64,000 nucleotides of DNA from Cutibacterium modestum (GTDB lineage: Bacteria; Actinomycetota; Actinomycetes; Propionibacteriales; Propionibacteriaceae), in contig NZ_BJEN01000002.1 in the NCBI RefSeq assembly GCF_008326345.1, positions 248,001-312,000 on the forward strand. Direction: 5' to 3'. The position numbers and the translations under genes are program-made. Under the pieces are notes generated by a model. The model searched no databases. It had not been told where the DNA came from and was given only the letters and a program-made list of their open reading frames with translations. Position 1 is the stretch's first letter. Each line of letters begins with the position of its first letter. Of this stretch, positions 16,243 through 44,692 are shown piece by piece.

Positions 16243-16343
16243 CATGATTGCCACAGATGGTCCGAGGACATCGAGTGCCTTCGGGCGGTGGTTCGACGCG
16301 GGTGGTGGACTCCCGACCCCGTGGCTATGATCGGGGACAACGA

Positions 16344-16424
16344 CAGGGGAGCATCGTTGGATGCTGAGAGTGGGCACCGCCCAGACCCTCGAACCTGAAC
16401 CGGTTAGGACCGGCGTAGGGAGTC
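16344..16424 (+). promoter_or_regulatory. TPP (THI-box) riboswitch
   Basis: The sequence carries the hallmark thi-box elements in order: GGGGAGC, ATGCTGAGAG, ACCCTCGAACCTGA, and GGTTAGGACCGGCGTAGGGA. Thiamine pyrophosphate binding would shut off the downstream ykoE and ykoDC genes for thiamine-precursor import. Position and orientation fit: about 50 bases separate it from the ykoE start. Confidence 0.95.
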
Positions 16425-16446
16425 GGGCTCTTCGCGCTTTCGCGCC

Positions 16447-36008: not shown

Positions 36009-37544
36009 ATGAGTACCGAACTGCGTCGCGTCACATACGGAAATCACGGCGTCGCCCGGCTGACCCCAGCTCCCGACAAGCCCGGCCCGTACATGGGCAT
36101 GCCGAAGTTTTCGAAGGCCGTCAAAAGTGAGTTGAACCTGTCGGTGCAGCGCAAGAACATGCGCAATGCCACCATGACGATTCGTAACAAGCGCGCCATG
36201 CGGGTCTCTGAGTCACCGGATTGGCAGGAACTGCGCAATGCTGCCGAATCCATCAAGAGTCGCGTCGGCCGCCACCTCGACCACTATCTAGTTGAGGCGG
36301 AGAAGAACCTCACTGCGAACGGCGTTAACGTTCACTGGGCCCGCGATGGCGAGGAGGCTAACCACATCGTTGCCCAGATCGCCAAGGACAAAGGGGTTGA
36401 TGAGGTCGTCAAGATCAAGTCGATCACCAGTCAGGAGACCGACCTTAACGAGTACCTCGAAGAACAGGGCATCGCGGCATGGGAGACCGATCTGGCCGAG
36501 CTCATCGTGCAACTAGGCCACGACCGCCCCTCGCACATCGTCGTGCCGGCCATCCATCGCAACCGCTCCGAGGTCCGCGAGATCTTTCTCCACGAGATGA
36601 AGAACTACGGCCGGGCGGCTCCCGAGGATATCTCAGAGAACCCGCCGGAGCTGGCTAACGCGGCTCGTCTGCACCTGCGTGAGAAGTTCCTGCGTGCCGA
36701 GATGGCTGTCTCGGGTGGTAACTTCGTGCTCGCCGACACCGGGTCCCTGGTGATCGTCGAGTCTGAGGGCAATGGCCGGATGTGCCTGACCCTGCCGGAC
36801 ACCCTGGTGTCGATCGTCGGCGTCGAGAAGGTACTGCCGAGCTTCGACGACCTCGAGGTCTTTCTCAAACTGCTGCCACGCTCCGCGACTGGCGAGCGGA
36901 TGAACCCGTACAACTCGGTGTGGAGCGGTGTGACCGATGGCGACGGGCCGCAGGAGCAGCACGTCATCTTCCTCGACAACGGTCGTACCGATGTCCTAGC
37001 CGATACGCTCGGCCGCGAGGTACTACGGTGCATCCGGTGCGCTTCGTGTATCAACATTTGCCCGGTTTACGAGCGTGCCGGTGGCCACGCCTACGGTTCG
37101 GTGTATCCCGGGCCGATTGGAGCTGTCCTCAATCCACAGTTACGGGGGGTTGAGCATCCCGTCGATCGTGGCCTGCCCTATGCGTGTTCACTATGCGGTG
37201 CCTGCAACGAGGTATGCCCGGTGAAGATCCCCTTCACCGATATCCTCCTCAAGCTGCGCAACAAGGTGGTCGAGTCCGAGAAAGCCGACCGCATCCCGCA
37301 AGACTACGAAGTGGCCGGTGAGATGGGCCTTATGAAGACAGCCTCGTGGGCGTTTAGCGACCACAAGCACTTCGAGGCGATCCAGGTTGGCTCACGGGGT
37401 GTGGGACGTGTCCTGCGTGGCAAGAAGATGGGACCGGTCCCGGTGCCGGTGGCTGAGCGGTGGCTGAAGTACCGCGACGTCGATGCGCCGCCGACCGACA
37501 CGTTCCGCACCTGGTGGAAGAAGAACAGGGAGGAGAAGCGATGA
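36009..37544 (+). CDS. lutB: Lactate utilisation iron-sulfur protein LutB
   Basis: 511-aa LutB. The LUD-like N-terminal domain (FVLADTGSLVIVESEGNGRM) is followed by two 4Fe-4S ferredoxin motifs, CIRCASCINICPVY near residue 340 and CSLCGACNEVCPVKI near 395, and a C-terminal DUF3390-like tail. It is the central electron-transfer subunit of the lactate oxidation complex. GAGGAGG precedes the ATG. The end overlaps lutC by four bases (ATGA). Confidence 0.93.
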   Translation: MSTELRRVTYGNHGVARLTPAPDKPGPYMGMPKFSKAVKSELNLSVQRKNMRNATMTIRNKRAMRVSESPDWQELRNAAESIKSRVGRHLDHYLVEAEKNLTANGVNVHWARDGEEANHIVAQIAKDKGVDEVVKIKSITSQETDLNEYLEEQGIAAWETDLAELIVQLGHDRPSHIVVPAIHRNRSEVREIFLHEMKNYGRAAPEDISENPPELANAARLHLREKFLRAEMAVSGGNFVLADTGSLVIVESEGNGRMCLTLPDTLVSIVGVEKVLPSFDDLEVFLKLLPRSATGERMNPYNSVWSGVTDGDGPQEQHVIFLDNGRTDVLADTLGREVLRCIRCASCINICPVYERAGGHAYGSVYPGPIGAVLNPQLRGVEHPVDRGLPYACSLCGACNEVCPVKIPFTDILLKLRNKVVESEKADRIPQDYEVAGEMGLMKTASWAFSDHKHFEAIQVGSRGVGRVLRGKKMGPVPVPVAERWLKYRDVDAPPTDTFRTWWKKNREEKR

Positions 37545-38221
37545 CCACCATCAGCACTGATCCGGTGGCGCGTACCGAAATCCTTGCCCGGATTCGTCGC
37601 GCCAGCTCGGACATCACCACTTCTGACCCGGTCGCGGATGTGCCGATCGAGTGGGAGTACGGCACCGGTATCGAGATGGACGACGTCGTCGGAACCTTCG
37701 TCGAGAAGGTTATCGACTACAAGGCTACCGTTGTGCGAGTCAAGGGGGCTGACGTTCCCAATGCCGTCGCTGAGGGACTCAAGGCCACCGGGGCCGAGCA
37801 CAGTGTCGTCGTGCCGGTCGGTCTGGATAAGTCCTGGGTCGAGGCGATCAAGGGTGCCGGTATTGACGTCCGCGTTGACGATCCTCAGCTGTCCAAGGAG
37901 GAGCTCAACGGCACCGACGCCGTCGTCACCGCGGCAGCGTGCGGCATTGCCGACACCGGGTCGATCGTCCTGACCCACGTCGAGGACCAGGGGCGCAGGG
38001 CTATTACCCTCGTTCCCGATCGCCATGTCTGCGTCATGAACGCTAACCAGGTGGTCTCCGACGTCCCGGAGGCCATTCAGATCGTCAAACCGGCGGTGCA
38101 TGACGGTCACCCATTGACCTTCATCTCCGGTGGTTCGGCTACCTCCGACATTGAGTTGGCACGTGTCGATGGCGTCCATGGGCCCCGTCAGCTCTACGTC
38201 GTCGTTGTTGACGACCAGTGA
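37541..38221 (+). CDS. lutC: Lactate utilisation protein C (LUD domain)
   Basis: 226-aa LUD-domain protein: ATVVRVKGADVPNAVAEGLK, AAACGIADTGSIVLTH and the C-terminal FISGGSATSDIELARVDGVH with HGPRQLYVVVVD, which are the LutC signatures. It completes the LutABC set. The ATG at 37541 sits in the lutB stop and follows GGAGGAG; the longer frame from 37460 is a readthrough of lutB sequence. It ends the operon. Confidence 0.92.
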   Translation: MTTISTDPVARTEILARIRRASSDITTSDPVADVPIEWEYGTGIEMDDVVGTFVEKVIDYKATVVRVKGADVPNAVAEGLKATGAEHSVVVPVGLDKSWVEAIKGAGIDVRVDDPQLSKEELNGTDAVVTAAACGIADTGSIVLTHVEDQGRRAITLVPDRHVCVMNANQVVSDVPEAIQIVKPAVHDGHPLTFISGGSATSDIELARVDGVHGPRQLYVVVVDDQ

Positions 38222-38290: not shown

Positions 38291-38518
38291 TGGTCGCGTT
38301 ATAAGGCCTGCCTACCCGCTCGTTCGTAGTTGCCAAAACAGCCGAAGTCGGCGATGGCAATGTTTCTATGACTAGTTTTTAGTGGCGGCGGCATGGATAG
38401 GGTGCGGAATGAGTCACGGTTGCTGCAGGTTCACCACCATTACTCCTGTCCCCAGGGAGTTCGACGTCGGCGTCCAGGACGATTACCGGAACTCCGCGAA
38501 GCTGGCTTCGTCGTCGGG

Positions 38519-38752
38519 TTGCAGGTGGGTGTGTGTTAGGTGTGCTCGGGGAAGAGTCGTTGAAGAGTAGTCAATGTGGCTGAGGGTGCGTGGTTGTATT
38601 GGCTGGTTTTCGGTGGTTTGGCGGTTGTGGGGTGGATTGGGTCTGTGGTGATTTGGTGGCTTTTCGGTTCTGTGGCTACGGAGGATGGTAGTGATCGGTC
38701 TTCCACACCGGATTACCACGTCTGGGGCAGGTTTCAGTGGTGATAGGCGGTT
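38519..38752. repeat. Left copy of a ~230-bp direct repeat flanking the 38.5-43 kb cassette
   Basis: 234 bases that recur almost unchanged at 42817-43041 in the same orientation. The copies differ by an 11-base insertion here (CTGTGGTGATT), a two-base gap near the right end and single substitutions. The plus strand is strongly rich in G and T. No transposase or integrase frame is inside; the proline-rich minus-strand frame looks like a by-product of the base bias. The repeat begins TTGCAGGTGGGTG and ends GGCGGTT. Confidence 0.95.
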
Positions 38753-38795
38753 GGCGTATTGTGCATCGTCAGGTTATGCTAAACTTTCACGCGCG

Positions 38796-38829
38796 GGTAT
38801 AACTCCAGCCTTTGCGAAGGATTTATACC
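38796..38829. promoter_or_regulatory. Hairpin upstream of the secreted-protein gene
   Basis: GGTATAA and TTATACC form the outer arms and CCTT/AAGG the inner arms of a nested inverted repeat in the AT-rich region about 100 bases before the secreted-protein start. TATAAG at 38836-38841 just after it resembles a -10 box. It may be an operator or leader structure; function is inferred only from position. Confidence 0.4.
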
Positions 38830-38928: not shown

Positions 38929-39333
38929 GTGTTCTCTCATAAAAATTTCAGGACGATAATGGTGGCCGCTGCTGCCGGTCTTGTTTTAACTGCATCGATG
39001 GCCGTTCCCGTGTTAGCCGAGGGTAAGATCGACTCTCATATATCGAATGGGAGGGTAGGGTTTGAAACTCGGAGTTGGCGGGATAACGACTCCGATAGAA
39101 CCTCAACGAGCGTTTCACATTACTCGAAGTGCAATGCCAAGTCGGTTAGCTATGAGCTTATGCACGAGTATTCGTGGCGTCCGGACGTCAAGTTGGGTAC
39201 CCTGACGCTTTCTTGTTCGAAGAGAGGTTCCGTATATTGGGGGCGTCAGGTTGAAGGCGGTTACCACGTGGTCATTCGGGGTATTGGCGGAAGGCCGTCG
39301 GTGTCGGTGAACGACTTCCGAATCGACTACTGA
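38929..39333 (+). CDS. Small secreted protein, possible bacteriocin-like peptide
   Basis: 134 aa with a clear signal peptide: basic start (MFSHKNFR), hydrophobic core VAAAAGLVLTASMAVP and a likely cleavage after VLA near residue 30. The mature part is about 104 aa, rich in Ser, Arg and aromatic residues, with two cysteines (HYSKCNAKSVSYEL and LTLSCSKRG) that could form a disulfide. GTG at 38929 gives the complete signal peptide; ATG at 38959 (after AGGA) would lose its basic end. It is followed after 14 bases by an ABC transporter set. This layout, and the H-x-S-K-C segment, recall lactococcin-972-like loci, but I cannot prove membership. Confidence 0.7.
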   Translation: MFSHKNFRTIMVAAAAGLVLTASMAVPVLAEGKIDSHISNGRVGFETRSWRDNDSDRTSTSVSHYSKCNAKSVSYELMHEYSWRPDVKLGTLTLSCSKRGSVYWGRQVEGGYHVVIRGIGGRPSVSVNDFRIDY

Positions 39334-39347
39334 CAACTAGCCACACC

Positions 39348-40064
39348 ATGATTATTGAGAATGTCGCGTATTCCTATCGACGGCACCATGAGGTCTTACA
39401 CGGGGTGAGTATTGAGTTTGCTCTGGGCAAGACCGCTTTGTTGGGCCCCAATGGAGCCGGAAAGTCCACCCTGTTCTCACTATGTTCGGGAGCCTCTGCT
39501 CCGAGATCAGGGAGGATCATACTGGGGACGGCCGAGGCGTCACCGCGGACATTGCGTCGCCGGGTGGGGCTCATGGCTCAGACTGTCCGAGCTATGGCTG
39601 GGTTGACGGTGCGCGAGCAGGTCGCCTATTGCGGATGGCTGATGGGACTGAGCACCCGTGAAGCTGTAGCCAGAGCAGATAAGATGATCGCGGACGTCGA
39701 TCTGGCCGACAAGGCCGATGACCGAGCCTCGCGGATTTCTGGTGGTCAGTTGCGCCGGGTGGGGCTGGCCCAGGTACTCATCGGACAGCCGGAGGTATTG
39801 CTGCTCGACGAGCCGACCGCCGGTCTCGACCCTGCTCAGAGAATGCGTTTCCGGGAGGTGCTCGAGCGGATTCCCGACAACCGGGTCACCGTCGTATCCA
39901 CCCACCAGGTCGATGATCTCACCGATGGATACGACAGAGTGATCGTGCTGTCGGCTGGGCGAATCGTCTTCGATGGCTCTCCCGAGGAGTTCCTCGACCT
40001 TGCCCCGGAGGATGCACCGCACCGCGCAGAGGCGGCCTACCTGAGTCTGATGGTCGACGAATGA
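39348..40064 (+). CDS. ABC transporter ATP-binding protein
   Basis: 238-aa ATPase. Walker A GPNGAGKSTLFSLCSG lies near residue 34, the signature ISGGQLRRVGLAQVLIG near 130, Walker B LLLDEPTAGLDP near 152 and the H-loop THQVDD near 185. It resembles the ATPases of two-component exporters of peptides or antibiotics. It lies between the secreted protein and two membrane proteins, and its stop overlaps the next ATG. No Shine-Dalgarno is visible, so translation may depend on coupling with the preceding gene. Confidence 0.9.
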   Translation: MIIENVAYSYRRHHEVLHGVSIEFALGKTALLGPNGAGKSTLFSLCSGASAPRSGRIILGTAEASPRTLRRRVGLMAQTVRAMAGLTVREQVAYCGWLMGLSTREAVARADKMIADVDLADKADDRASRISGGQLRRVGLAQVLIGQPEVLLLDEPTAGLDPAQRMRFREVLERIPDNRVTVVSTHQVDDLTDGYDRVIVLSAGRIVFDGSPEEFLDLAPEDAPHRAEAAYLSLMVDE

Positions 40065-41293
40065 GGTTCACGACTCGACTCCGGACTGCGCCGGGCGTGT
40101 GGCTTGCGCCTTTGGTTGCCGTGATTTTCGTGATGGTCGACCAGAACGCTTCCAGCGAGCCGTATTGGCTTTCCCAGGTTGTGGGCGACACTGCCAAGAC
40201 CATGGTCGCCAATGCCTTATGTGCCCTTGCCGGAGTCCTCGAGGGCCGACGACTCAAGGCGGTCTTGACATGTAATCGTGTCAGAGCGTGGGGGTGCGTC
40301 CTCCTCGGTCCTGTGGTGGCATCGGCTGCGGCAGCCACAGTGTTGACGATGGTCTTCATGGCGAGGCATGGATTTGCCTCGTACCCCTTGGGATGGGCCA
40401 TTCTTGGCGTCACCCTGTTGTCCGTATGGTCGTGGACCATCACCGGGGTTACGTTGGGTTTGTGGTTACACGTGGCTGTGGCGGCACCGTTGGCTTTGGC
40501 GGCGCCAATGGTGTGGATGATTTTTCCGCCCGGAATGTCGATCTACTGGTTGCGTCACCTCACTGGGACCTGGGTTGACTGTTGTGTCATCACCGACACG
40601 CTCAACCCCGTTGTTATCACTGGCACTTTGGCCGTCCAGCTCGGCCTGCTAGCAGCAGCCATCATTGCGGTCTCCGCCCGTACCACACCGCATCGGCGCC
40701 GGACGATGTTGTCCGTGGCTACCCTCCCCTTGATTGCGGGATCCATTGCGGGTGTCGCGCAGGTTCGGCATCTTGACGCGTTTTCGACTATTCCGCGGGG
40801 TATGGTCGTGGAATGTCATGCGGTTGTAGGTCGAGGCACTCAGCTATGTCTACTTCCCGAACACGAGTCGGAGCGGGCATTGCTGGATTCGACCGCAAAA
40901 CGGGTGCTTCCGATCTGGAAACGTGCAGGGGTTGATGTGCCGAGGTGGTATTCCGAGCAGGCCCTTCCCGGGCGGAGGGACGTTGCTGCGCTGAGCGTCG
41001 CCCCAGGGATGTCAGGGGAGTCGCTGGCCACCGCACGGCTCGCTGCTGCCACGGGTAATCATTTTTGTCCGGCTTCGAACGATAGGACGCAGCCGGCAGA
41101 GATCATGCAGTACGGCGGGCGTATTGACGCCTGGTTGCGGGAGGTGACCCGCGCCGGCGGGATCAAGGTCACTGGGGAAGGAGTGACTGGCGAGGACGCC
41201 ACATGGGCCAGGCAGACACGCACTAAAGGTGCGGCGGCGCAGACCGTCGAGATCAGGAAGATGCAGGAATACCTGCAAGGTTGTCCTCGATGA
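40061..41293 (+). CDS. ABC transporter-associated membrane protein with large C-terminal domain
   Basis: 410 aa. About six hydrophobic segments fill the first 240 residues (VWLAPLVAVIFVMV, VLLGPVVASAAAATVLTMVF, LGLWLHVAVAAPLALAAPM, AVQLGLLAAAIIAVSA, VATLPLIAGSIAGVAQV), followed by a roughly 165-residue soluble domain with three cysteines (VECHAVV, TQLCLLP, NHFCPAS). It probably forms the permease with the ATPase gene it overlaps (ATGA). I do not recognise a named family. Confidence 0.75.
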   Translation: MRFTTRLRTAPGVWLAPLVAVIFVMVDQNASSEPYWLSQVVGDTAKTMVANALCALAGVLEGRRLKAVLTCNRVRAWGCVLLGPVVASAAAATVLTMVFMARHGFASYPLGWAILGVTLLSVWSWTITGVTLGLWLHVAVAAPLALAAPMVWMIFPPGMSIYWLRHLTGTWVDCCVITDTLNPVVITGTLAVQLGLLAAAIIAVSARTTPHRRRTMLSVATLPLIAGSIAGVAQVRHLDAFSTIPRGMVVECHAVVGRGTQLCLLPEHESERALLDSTAKRVLPIWKRAGVDVPRWYSEQALPGRRDVAALSVAPGMSGESLATARLAAATGNHFCPASNDRTQPAEIMQYGGRIDAWLREVTRAGGIKVTGEGVTGEDATWARQTRTKGAAAQTVEIRKMQEYLQGCPR

Positions 41294-41859
41294 GGTATTG
41301 GGTACGCAATCGGCTGGTATGGATGCAGGTGGCGGCGGCATGTCTGTTTTCCGGGGTGTGCGCTCTTACCGATCCTGGGGGCTTGTCAGTGCCCGCCATC
41401 TTCGGCAGCATCGGCTCTTTGGTGGTGTTCAACAACCTGTTCGGACTGGTGCTGGCAATCATCTATGCCGTTGGTTTGTCGCGGGCAAACTTGGGTGTGG
41501 AGGACAGATCGCTACGCCATACCGGAATCCTCGATGCCGCCTTGGGGGTGGCCATCTCGGTGATTATGCTGCTGGGGTTGTTGGGTGGGCCGGGTAATTC
41601 CAGTGTTGTTCGCGACGTGCCGGTCTTCTTGGGAATCACAATGGTTGCGGCGCGTTGGATGCCGCGGAACCTTGCCGCGTTGCCGTCGATCGCATTTTTC
41701 TTTGTCGGTATTCTGGCTGGGCGTGCCTACGACGGGGAGGCGTGGTGGAACTGGCCAGTCGCCAAGCCATCGGGAGTGGTGAGCCGAGGGTGGGTCATTG
41801 CTTCAATGAGCCTTGGTATGCTGGCCTTGGCAATTCCGACTCGAGCGGGAGGAAACTGA
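41290..41859 (+). CDS. Hydrophobic membrane protein of the ABC cassette
   Basis: 189 aa, mostly hydrophobic with five to six helices, for example VWMQVAAACLFSGVCAL, LVVFNNLFGLVLAIIYAVGL, LGVAISVIMLLGLLGG and WVIASMSLGMLALAIP. The ATG at 41290 overlaps the upstream TGA, so it is the last gene of a four-gene operon. It may be a second permease subunit or an immunity protein. No family recognised. Confidence 0.7.
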   Translation: MRYWVRNRLVWMQVAAACLFSGVCALTDPGGLSVPAIFGSIGSLVVFNNLFGLVLAIIYAVGLSRANLGVEDRSLRHTGILDAALGVAISVIMLLGLLGGPGNSSVVRDVPVFLGITMVAARWMPRNLAALPSIAFFFVGILAGRAYDGEAWWNWPVAKPSGVVSRGWVIASMSLGMLALAIPTRAGGN

Positions 41860-41870
41860 ACTGAGTCGTA

Positions 41871-42761
41871 TTAAGGTTGAGAAGGCTCAAGGCCGCCACA
41901 GGGTCGGCACGGGGCCATCACCCGGGTGCCGATGAGCTGGCCCCGTTCTGCCCAAGTAAGCACGATTCCAGCGATGAACCTTTCCCCTACGATGTTGCGC
42001 AATCAGATCAGGTGCTTCGCATCGGCTAGTTGCATTGACGCGGCTGCCTTGACTTCGGTGGCGATTACCCGCTGATCGTCGAGTTCCACAGCCAAGTCGA
42101 TTTCTCGTCGGGACTTCAGCCCATGCGTCCGGTGCCCCACACTCAGCTGAGTTCTTGCACATCCTTGGTGGTCTGCGATCCAGGTAGGATGTGAACCACG
42201 CCTTGCGGATCCGCTCGGGTACCGCCGTACTTCGGGCATCGAGCCGGTGACCAGTATGTCGACGTAACCGGCGCGGGTGAGGGGGCGAGGTGACGGCTGC
42301 CGGACGCGGACCTTCTAATACCGGGTGGACGAAGCCTCCCGGACTCCTGCCAGTTCCTTTTGGCTCAAACCTCGGACCCAGCAGCCGACGATTCGTCCGG
42401 CCAGGTTGTCTGGCGATGCGTTTCCGGTGGCGGTGCGGGACCTTCTCGTGGACAGGAAACGGCCCGTGCCCCGATGCGTGTCGACCTCGGCTTTGGGCGG
42501 CAGGATGAAATCCGGAGCGCGCTGAAATTCGTCGATAACCATCAAGCCGTCGCCATGTTGATCCAGGAAGGCGATGGAATCGGTGAGGGCCGTATGTCGC
42601 GTCTGCGCGTCATCGAAGGAGTAGTGGTCGGCATCGGGATAATCCTGCGCCACCATGAACGCGAGAGTGGATTTACCGACTTGGCGGGCTCCTTCTAGCT
42701 CGACTGCGGGGACGTGTCGCAGTAACTCAGCGGCCTATGACTTCGTGCTCCGCGGGATCAG
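41871..42761 (-). pseudogene. Decayed AAA-family ATPase with DUF4143 C-terminus
   Basis: Remnant of an ATPase of about 400 aa. Walker A region ELEGARQVGKSTLAFMVAQD (near 42670), Walker B LMVIDEFQRAPDFI, then AGYVDILVTGSMPEVRR and REIDLAVELDDQRVIATEVK of the DUF4143 nuclease-like end are seen in different frames. In-frame stops include TAG at 42735-42737 just before the ATPase core, a stop after VREASSTRY near 42315, and a TGA near 42003 where CGA is expected (KHLI then LRNIVGERF). It is inside the repeat-flanked cassette but on the opposite strand, and is clearly non-functional. Confidence 0.85.
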
Positions 42762-42816
42762 AGCATGGATGCAGAATAGCGGTTCCTGTTGCTCTGCGGT
42801 CGAGGTGGCTGTTGGT

Positions 42817-43041
42817 TTGCAGGTGGGTGTGTGTTAGGTGTGCTCGGGGAAGAGTCGTTGAAGAGTAGTCAATGTGGCTGAGGGTGCGTGGTTGTATTGG
42901 CTGGTTTTCGGTGGTTTGGCGGTTGTGGGGTGGATTGGGTTGGTGGCTTTTCGGTTCTGTGGCTACGGAGGATGGTAGTGATCGGTCTTCCACACCGGAT
43001 TACCACGTCTGGGGCAGGTGATTCAGTGGTGACAGGCGGTT
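42817..43041. repeat. Right copy of the ~230-bp direct repeat
   Basis: 225 bases matching 38519-38752 in direct orientation, lacking the 11-base insertion and carrying two extra bases (GA) near the right end. It abuts the 3' end of cydC, 46 bases away. Recombination between the copies would delete about 4.3 kb and leave one copy between lutC and cydC. Confidence 0.95.
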
Positions 43042-43087
43042 CGTGGAGTGGTGCACTACGGCACGGGTTAAATGATCCTTACGATTC

Positions 43088-44692
43088 TTACCCGATTCGC
43101 CATACCCGGTCGCAGCGTGCCATGACGAGGGGATCGTGGGTGATGACGACTTTTGCTGCATTGGTCGTTGTCGCCCACAGGTCGTCCATGAGGGCCTCGG
43201 AGGTCTCGACGTCGAGGTGTTCGGTGGGTTCGTCGAGGATGAGTAGGTCGTGCGCCGCTGGATCGACAGTGGCGTCGTGGCTGACGAGTACCCGGGCCAG
43301 GGCGAGGCGCTGAGCCTCCCCGCCGGACAATGTCCCACCGTCCTCGGCAATAACTCGCCCCGGGGGCATGGAGAGTCCGGCCCGATCCAGGGCCGCGAGC
43401 ACCTCCGACTCGGTGGCCTCCTTGCAGCCGATCCGCACGTTTTCGCTGATTGACGTCGCGAAGACGTGGGCGTTCTGGGCCAGATACCTCACCCGTCCGG
43501 TCGTCTTCACCGTGCCACCTAGCGGTGGGATGAGCCCCATGACGGTTGCGGCCAAGGTTGTCTTCCCGATACCTGACCGCCCGACGATGGCCACCGATTC
43601 CCCAGCTGCCACACTCAGACTCACCTCGGACAGCACCAGTTTACCACCTGGCCATCCGACAACCAACTTCTCGATAACCAAGGACGGTTCTTCCTGAGAA
43701 CCACCGGCCGTGGGGGAGTCCCCCACCCCGATTTGTGGAGCATCCAACACCTCTGCCACCCGTAACAGGGCAGCCTTGGCCCGGGTGTGAGTCTGGGCGG
43801 CCCCAGTGAATGCTCCGAAGACCTCGTGGAGGGCCAGCGGGGTGAGCACCAACACAGCCAGTATTCGCCCGCCGATCCGGCCGTCGGCAACAGCATTGCC
43901 GCCGATCCACAGGGCCGAGACGACTGCTAACCCGGCCGCCAGAATCTGACCTGCAGTACCGAGGCCGCGCCCCCAAGCCGCCTTGCGTTCTGCGGTACGA
44001 AGCCGGGCGTCGACGTCCAGTACATCGGCCAGGATCGCATCCTGAGCACCGTAGGCCACCAGATCCGGCGCGCAATGGGCCAGCTCGCGGGTGCGGTCGG
44101 CCAGCTCACCACGCAGTGGCACTAAAGAAGAGTCGGCAGTCCGGGATAAGCGTTGAGTGATTGCCGGCATGACGACGGCCGCCAGCAGGGCCGATAACAG
44201 CAGGATTGCAGCCGAGGCCAATGAGAACCGGGCGAGCAGGGCCGTCGTCCCGATGATGACGAGGCTCGACGCACACGCTGGAACGATTACCCGCACGACC
44301 ATGTCCAGCACCGCGTCGACGTCGGCGGTAACCCGTACTAGCAGGTCACCGCGGCGATGTCCCAGTAGGGTGGTGCGGGACAGCCGATCGTAGACCCGCA
44401 TCCGCAATGCCCCCTGCATCCGCAGCGCCAGGTTATGGCCGACCAGACGCTCGGCGTAGCGAAAGACACCGCGGGAGATACCGAAGAATCGCACCCCGAC
44501 GGCCGCGGCCTCCAGGTACAGCACCGGTGGCATCTCTGCTGCTCGTGACAGTAACCAGGCTGACACACCCATGAGGGCTACCGACGCCCCAGACGCACAC
44601 GCAGCGAGCAGGGTTGAGATGACCAGCAGCCAGCGGCCGCGCGGGACATCCCGCAACAGAGTCCTGAGCAACTGGGTGGCTCGCGCGTTCAT
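43088..44692 (-). CDS. cydC: Thiol reductant ABC exporter subunit CydC
   Basis: 534-aa half ABC exporter. Six membrane helices in the N-terminal part (LLVISTLLAACASGASVALM, AAAVGVRFFGISRGVFRYAE which is typical of CydC) are followed by an ATPase with Walker A GRSGIGKTTLAATVMG, signature LSGGEAQRLALARVLV and Walker B LLILDEPTEHLD. With CydD it exports glutathione or cysteine-type thiols needed to assemble cytochrome bd. Its ATG overlaps the cydD stop. Last gene of cydABDC. Confidence 0.93.
   Translation of the reverse strand: MNARATQLLRTLLRDVPRGRWLLVISTLLAACASGASVALMGVSAWLLSRAAEMPPVLYLEAAAVGVRFFGISRGVFRYAERLVGHNLALRMQGALRMRVYDRLSRTTLLGHRRGDLLVRVTADVDAVLDMVVRVIVPACASSLVIIGTTALLARFSLASAAILLLSALLAAVVMPAITQRLSRTADSSLVPLRGELADRTRELAHCAPDLVAYGAQDAILADVLDVDARLRTAERKAAWGRGLGTAGQILAAGLAVVSALWIGGNAVADGRIGGRILAVLVLTPLALHEVFGAFTGAAQTHTRAKAALLRVAEVLDAPQIGVGDSPTAGGSQEEPSLVIEKLVVGWPGGKLVLSEVSLSVAAGESVAIVGRSGIGKTTLAATVMGLIPPLGGTVKTTGRVRYLAQNAHVFATSISENVRIGCKEATESEVLAALDRAGLSMPPGRVIAEDGGTLSGGEAQRLALARVLVSHDATVDPAAHDLLILDEPTEHLDVETSEALMDDLWATTTNAAKVVITHDPLVMARCDRVWRIG

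Follow-up and report, generated by a model that had tools for sequence, protein, structure and literature searches.

The locus between the lutC-like gene and cydC in the DNA presented here raises the following question: what is the sequence of about 230 bp, unusually rich in G and T, that occurs there twice, and is it a small gene, a noncoding RNA, a recombination site or a relic of rearrangement? We analyzed the repeat within the whole 64-kb stretch of DNA (hereafter, the window), in the genome to which the window belongs and in related genomes; the coordinates of the relevant features are collected in Table 1. The repeat is very probably a short orphan sequence that was recently duplicated at a variable locus. 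That the unit encodes, or once encoded, a small membrane peptide with a single helix, in a frame intact in copy 1 and shifted in copy 2, is a tentative proposal to which we give somewhat less than an even chance. The statement as a whole, namely that a duplicated orphan unit, possibly a small membrane-protein gene, flanks a cassette at a variable locus, appears close to evenly balanced, with the doubt slightly outweighing the confidence.

Table 1. Repeat copies, candidate frames and neighboring genes (positions in the window)
Feature	Position	Strand	Evidence and remarks
LUD-domain gene (lutC-like), left neighbor	37541..38221	+	PF02589, E 6.1e-23
Repeat copy 1, G/T-rich on the plus strand	38516..38752	+	BLAST and alignment with copy 2; composition
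55-codon frame with GTG start in copy 1, candidate one-helix membrane peptide	38576..38743	+	ORF list; ends with TGA
134-aa protein, signal-peptide-like N-terminus, no known family	38929..39333	+	Profile searches
ABC transporter ATPase	39348..40064	+	PF00005, E 5.6e-28
410-aa membrane protein with DUF7224	40061..41293	+	PF23866, 35 bits against a 27-bit cut-off
192-aa hydrophobic protein, no family	41281..41859	+	ORF and profile scan
Broken AAA_14/DUF4143 gene, fragments	42003..42720	-	PF13173 and PF13635, both below cut-off; upper limit read by eye
Repeat copy 2, 11 bp shorter than copy 1 at one indel and 2 bp longer at another	42814..43041	+	BLAST within the window; genome-level search agrees
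49-codon ATG frame in copy 2	42872..43021	+	Arises at the 11-bp indel, which fuses a different N-terminal frame to the C-terminal frame shared with copy 1
cydC, right neighbor	43088..44692	-	TIGR02868, 576 bits against a cut-off of 329

A recently duplicated orphan sequence

The two copies align on the same strand with 93.7% identity over 239 columns (BLAST inside the window), and in the alignment copy 2 lacks 11 bases, copy 1 lacks 2 bases and two positions are mismatched, which agrees with the coordinates, the indels and the few substitutions reported in the earlier note. One mismatch is located at the extreme left edge of the alignment and the other one near its right end, so that there is a single mismatch inside 38519-38752. 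The plus strand is G/T-rich with few C bases in both copies, as had also been noticed (G+T of 0.743 in copy 1 and 0.733 in copy 2; C content of 13.0% and 13.6%, respectively). The copies indeed differ from the surrounding DNA, no other 234-bp stretch of the window, whichever strand is read, being as rich in G and T (0.756 and 0.752 for the copies, 0.692 for the next one); given that they rank third and fourth in 464 kb of their own genome, the bias, although strong, is not unique.

When direct repeats were counted with a minimum length of 100 bp, a minimum identity of 85% and a maximum spacing of 10 kb, 4 pairs were obtained in 464 kb of the same genome, the present pair included, and 3 pairs in 400 kb of the sister species G005; the duplication of the repeat is not due to chance. 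Given that the copies are nearly identical and that the sequences flanking them do not match each other, the comparison supports a recent duplication. Ongoing homogenisation, offered in the earlier note as the alternative, would look alike and is indistinguishable from recency with two copies in one genome.

A search of the genome (2.63 Mb in 9 contigs) for further copies, a check proposed in the earlier note, identified just these two, 4.3 kb apart and both at the lutC-like–cydC locus, with no third copy at E <= 0.001. The repeat sequence was found only at this locus, which is one half of the outcome (a unique, untranscribed sequence without conserved structure) that had been named as speaking against a noncoding RNA or a recombination site. 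A candidate third copy at G000:C1:497547 (49% protein identity, E 7e-4) was rejected, the DNA similarity consisting of one exact 15-mer and a G/T-rich background, which is within the estimated chance expectation. The repeat DNA was not found in the 36 other relatives searched, 8 of which belong to the same genus, and a 719-bp query comprising copy 1 and its flanks produced, across 57 genomes, other matches only as short stretches beside the lutC-like gene in G005 and G006. In a set of 394 genomes from the class, and leaving the own genome aside, G555 alone showed a match, of 31 bp (E 7.3e-4), which lies in unrelated-looking DNA, is expected by chance over 394 genomes and was not accepted as a relative. 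The plasmid and phage collections yielded no match to the repeat either by DNA or by protein, and no relative was confirmed in the scans of genomes and viral contigs, with the qualification that the collections searched may omit the window's own or very near records. In the literature, parts of which were accessible, nothing was noticed on the repeat or its locus, which does not show that either is unpublished.

A variable interval between two core genes

The copies bracket a 4.06-kb segment between cydC and the LUD-domain gene, for which the domain and the neighbors suggest the name lutC. The 134-aa protein encoded in this segment has a 77% identical relative in the same place in the sister species G004. 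Its assignment to lactococcin 972-type bacteriocins was considered and rejected, there being no match in Pfam, NCBIfam or PHROGs and no convincing match in PDB; the structure model (pLDDT 41.7) was too poor for a structure search. The broken AAA_14/DUF4143 gene resembles the PADLOC candidate defence family PDC-S01 (E 1.6e-22), and its relatives are open frames of 423-424 aa.

In seven of the eight sister loci, cydC comes after the LUD gene; the exception is G002, where 6 kb were analyzed and no cydC was found. Three of the eight sister species (G003, G004 and G007) carry the ABC genes in this interval without the repeat, and a DNA match to the 134-aa gene is present in G004 only. In G006, the interval contains other genes, including a cassette that encodes a secreted protein and a 65-aa hydrophobic membrane protein (L058 1100-2700), and pieces of its content recur in G005, G001 and G007. 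The piece shared by G006 and G007 (L055 3725-4178) is 93.6% identical over 455 bp, compared with 86.3% for lutC and 84.6% for cydC; this greater similarity than that of the neighboring core genes suggests exchange between species. The G005 interval contains a 165-bp direct repeat (93.3% identity; L059 1030-1194 and 1509-1671) that is built of sequence just downstream of the lutC-like gene and brackets a remnant of the G006-type cassette. Homology of this repeat to the G/T-rich one was rejected, as 197 of 500 shuffles matched the local score, and the two are unrelated. When each of the nine intervals was compared with itself, direct repeats of this kind were detected in the own genome and in G005 alone. 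Given the differences in content and the direct repeats in these two genomes, the interval is variable and has acquired direct duplications on at least two occasions.

Being long, nearly identical direct repeats, the two copies should be ordinary substrates for homologous recombination. The second copy would have arisen during a recombination-driven rearrangement of the lutC-like–cydC interval, and the direct copies would permit RecA-dependent loss of the secreted-peptide/ABC-transporter cassette. An interval that differs among sister species and twice carries direct repeats offers a testable model of local cassette turnover without a dedicated recombinase. It can be further imagined that this is a Cutibacterium cassette-exchange locus for secreted-protein/ABC modules, with direct repeats formed at each exchange, and that the repeat here contains a new immunity-like membrane-peptide gene that is kept on one side and is decaying on the other; we consider this extended scenario unlikely.

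A putative membrane-peptide gene or a noncoding relic

The 55-codon frame of copy 1 is shifted in copy 2 because of the 11-bp indel. Its putative product is predicted to form one helix, residues 5-42 (single-sequence AlphaFold2, mean pLDDT 80 and 96 over residues 11-30), and combines this hydrophobic helix with a polar tail (best 19-residue hydropathy 1.95). The frame has G or T at 47 of the 55 third positions, and the G/T bias might reflect codons for hydrophobic residues with G or T at the wobble position. The suggestion of the earlier note that the unit may be an RNA or a recombination site and not a gene goes too far on the last point given an open membrane-helix frame in copy 1, although the evidence of coding is weak. 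The frame has a codon score of 0.049, compared with -0.075 and -0.074 for the other frames, and is thus toward the lower end of what real genes show (-0.026 at the 5th percentile to 0.512 at the 95th). A second codon model was trained on the 20 most G/T-rich ORFs and its scores are rough, given that these ORFs were picked mechanically. Under this model, the first half of the frame scores 0.208, the second half -0.087 and the whole 0.061, a value close to what one wrong frame attains at its 95th percentile (0.046) and lower than the median for the best antisense frames (0.073); the 49-codon frame of copy 2 scores -0.049. Inspection by eye revealed no strong ribosome-binding site for the 55-codon frame.

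Small single-pass membrane proteins as a category include immunity-like peptides and type I toxins. The copy 1 frame is similar to these in its length of about 55 codons, one predicted helix and polar tail, and differs from them in that the putative peptide has no family match in Pfam, NCBIfam, PHROGs or PADLOC. Homologues of the peptide were detected in none of the 8 sister species at E <= 0.01. At the same threshold, 5 of 198 genomes of the family, including the own one, gave matches; the other four are 29-37% identical and were judged to be due to chance; three of them fall within longer open frames (454-650 codons), and the fourth, in G213, within a frame of 59 codons that contains a stop. 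Matches at E <= 1 in 28 of 57 genomes (the best one outside the own genome at 0.02) were judged to be probably due to chance as well.

These observations have to be weighed against the possibility that the repeat is functionless, noncoding, duplicated intergenic DNA, a relic of rearrangement with a G/T bias inherited from the source DNA, an explanation that we regard as serious although on balance doubtful. It is supported by the lack of homologues, by the fact that neither the 11-bp nor the 2-bp indel preserves the frame, by a fold no better than that of shuffled sequences (see below) and by the length of the frame, which is expected by chance: an ORF of at least 55 codons was present in 365 of 2000 dinucleotide shuffles, so that frame length is uninformative. 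Against it, codon scores in the first half of the GTG frame are comparable to those of real G/T-rich genes, and the frame yields a well-formed hydrophobic helix with a polar tail. The helix argument carries little weight, however, because G/T-rich DNA gives hydrophobic peptides in any frame, and any such frame would tend to yield a predicted membrane helix.

Composition is similarly ambiguous. Within the window, G+T of the coding strand correlates with hydropathy (r 0.53, 557 segments), and of the next 18 G/T peaks, the coding strand carries 11 and the strand opposite to it 4, whereas 3 fall outside any ORF of at least 150 aa; all six peaks with hydropathy of at least 1 are among the 11 on the coding strand. 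Outside the window, the 16 peaks examined in G000 (the own genome) and G005 are divided, relative to the longest ORF at each, into 2 on the coding strand, 11 opposite and 3 without an ORF, so that G/T richness is no proof of sense coding. The bias fits a membrane-peptide gene without proving one.

The 11 peaks opposite the longest ORF in G000 and G005 speak for a further, improbable explanation, namely that the minus strand carries a C/A-rich coding remnant, akin to C/A-rich genes elsewhere in these genomes, and that the G/T-rich strand is its antisense. Two open frames on the minus strand, one of 78 codons (38483-38719) and one of 88 (42727-42993), indeed cover most of the two copies and would encode peptides rich in Pro, Thr, His and Asn, but the minus-strand codon scores are -0.20, -0.18 and -0.05 vs 0.05 for the GTG frame under the first model, and -0.03, -0.06 and -0.02 vs 0.06 under the G/T-gene-trained one.

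RNA and recombination-site interpretations

The noncoding RNA suggested in the earlier note, or a cis-regulatory leader upstream of the secreted-peptide gene, appears quite improbable. Two features are in its favor: a promoter-like TTGGCG-18-TATGCT adjoining the end of copy 1 (seen by eye and unreported by a scan that required 9 of 12 positions), and a weak, terminator-like, G-U-rich hairpin with only three G-C pairs that is present in both copies, about one such hairpin being expected by chance in scans of this kind. However, no Rfam family reaches the gathering score over the repeat, the only one in the window being a TPP riboswitch at 16335-16438, and the fold of the repeat is not significantly stable, with z -1.44 on the plus strand (15 of 200 shuffles at least as stable) and +0.78 on the minus strand. 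Furthermore, G004 has the peptide gene without the repeat, no homologues are available for conservation analysis, and the two copies are too similar for covariation to show.

Very improbable is a dedicated recombination or transposition element, in which a mobile cassette would be bounded by attachment-like direct repeats or by a non-autonomous transposon. In its favor, the direct copies exactly bracket the cassette at a variable locus, and direct repeats occur in the same interval of G005. However, the G005 repeat is unrelated and derives from the flank there, the ABC genes occur in sister species with no repeat of this kind, copy 1 has no inverted repeat (38480-38800 scanned), and no integrase or transposase family was found among 10 nearby frames, two of them the repeat's own. 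One imperfect palindrome (43042-43065) lies just outside copy 2. In contrast to MITE-like non-autonomous transposons, copy 1 lacks terminal inverted repeats and the genome holds two copies rather than many dispersed ones; in contrast to sites of site-specific integration, there is no integrase in the frames scanned and no tRNA gene in the window, where no tandem array was found either. Neither the RNA nor the dedicated-site interpretation has positive support.

Relation to known systems

The locus resembles the variable intergenic cassette loci (hot spots) in that the content between the same two core genes varies among species, and differs from these in that no integrase or tRNA gene was found in the lutC-like–cydC interval. 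Taken in isolation, the repeat is ordinary. If the small-peptide reading is true, the repeat adds to the orphan membrane peptides one that is associated with a peptide/ABC cassette, in a bacterial genus living on skin; the gain would be modest if strains show the peptide to be under selection or the cassette to be lost through the copies.

The pair can be compared with recent direct (segmental) duplications in bacteria, the substrates of RecA-dependent deletion, with which it shares near-identical direct copies, a distance of a few kilobases and unmatched flanks; unlike in these, the copies here bracket a transporter cassette and are unusually G/T-rich. Other local duplications were noticed in these genomes, namely a perfect 340-bp tandem duplication at G000:C2:376064-376739 and, at G005:C1:205400-216300, repeated C/A-rich genes beside an 1855-codon frame that is presumably RHS-type, where duplicated small genes give local direct repeats.
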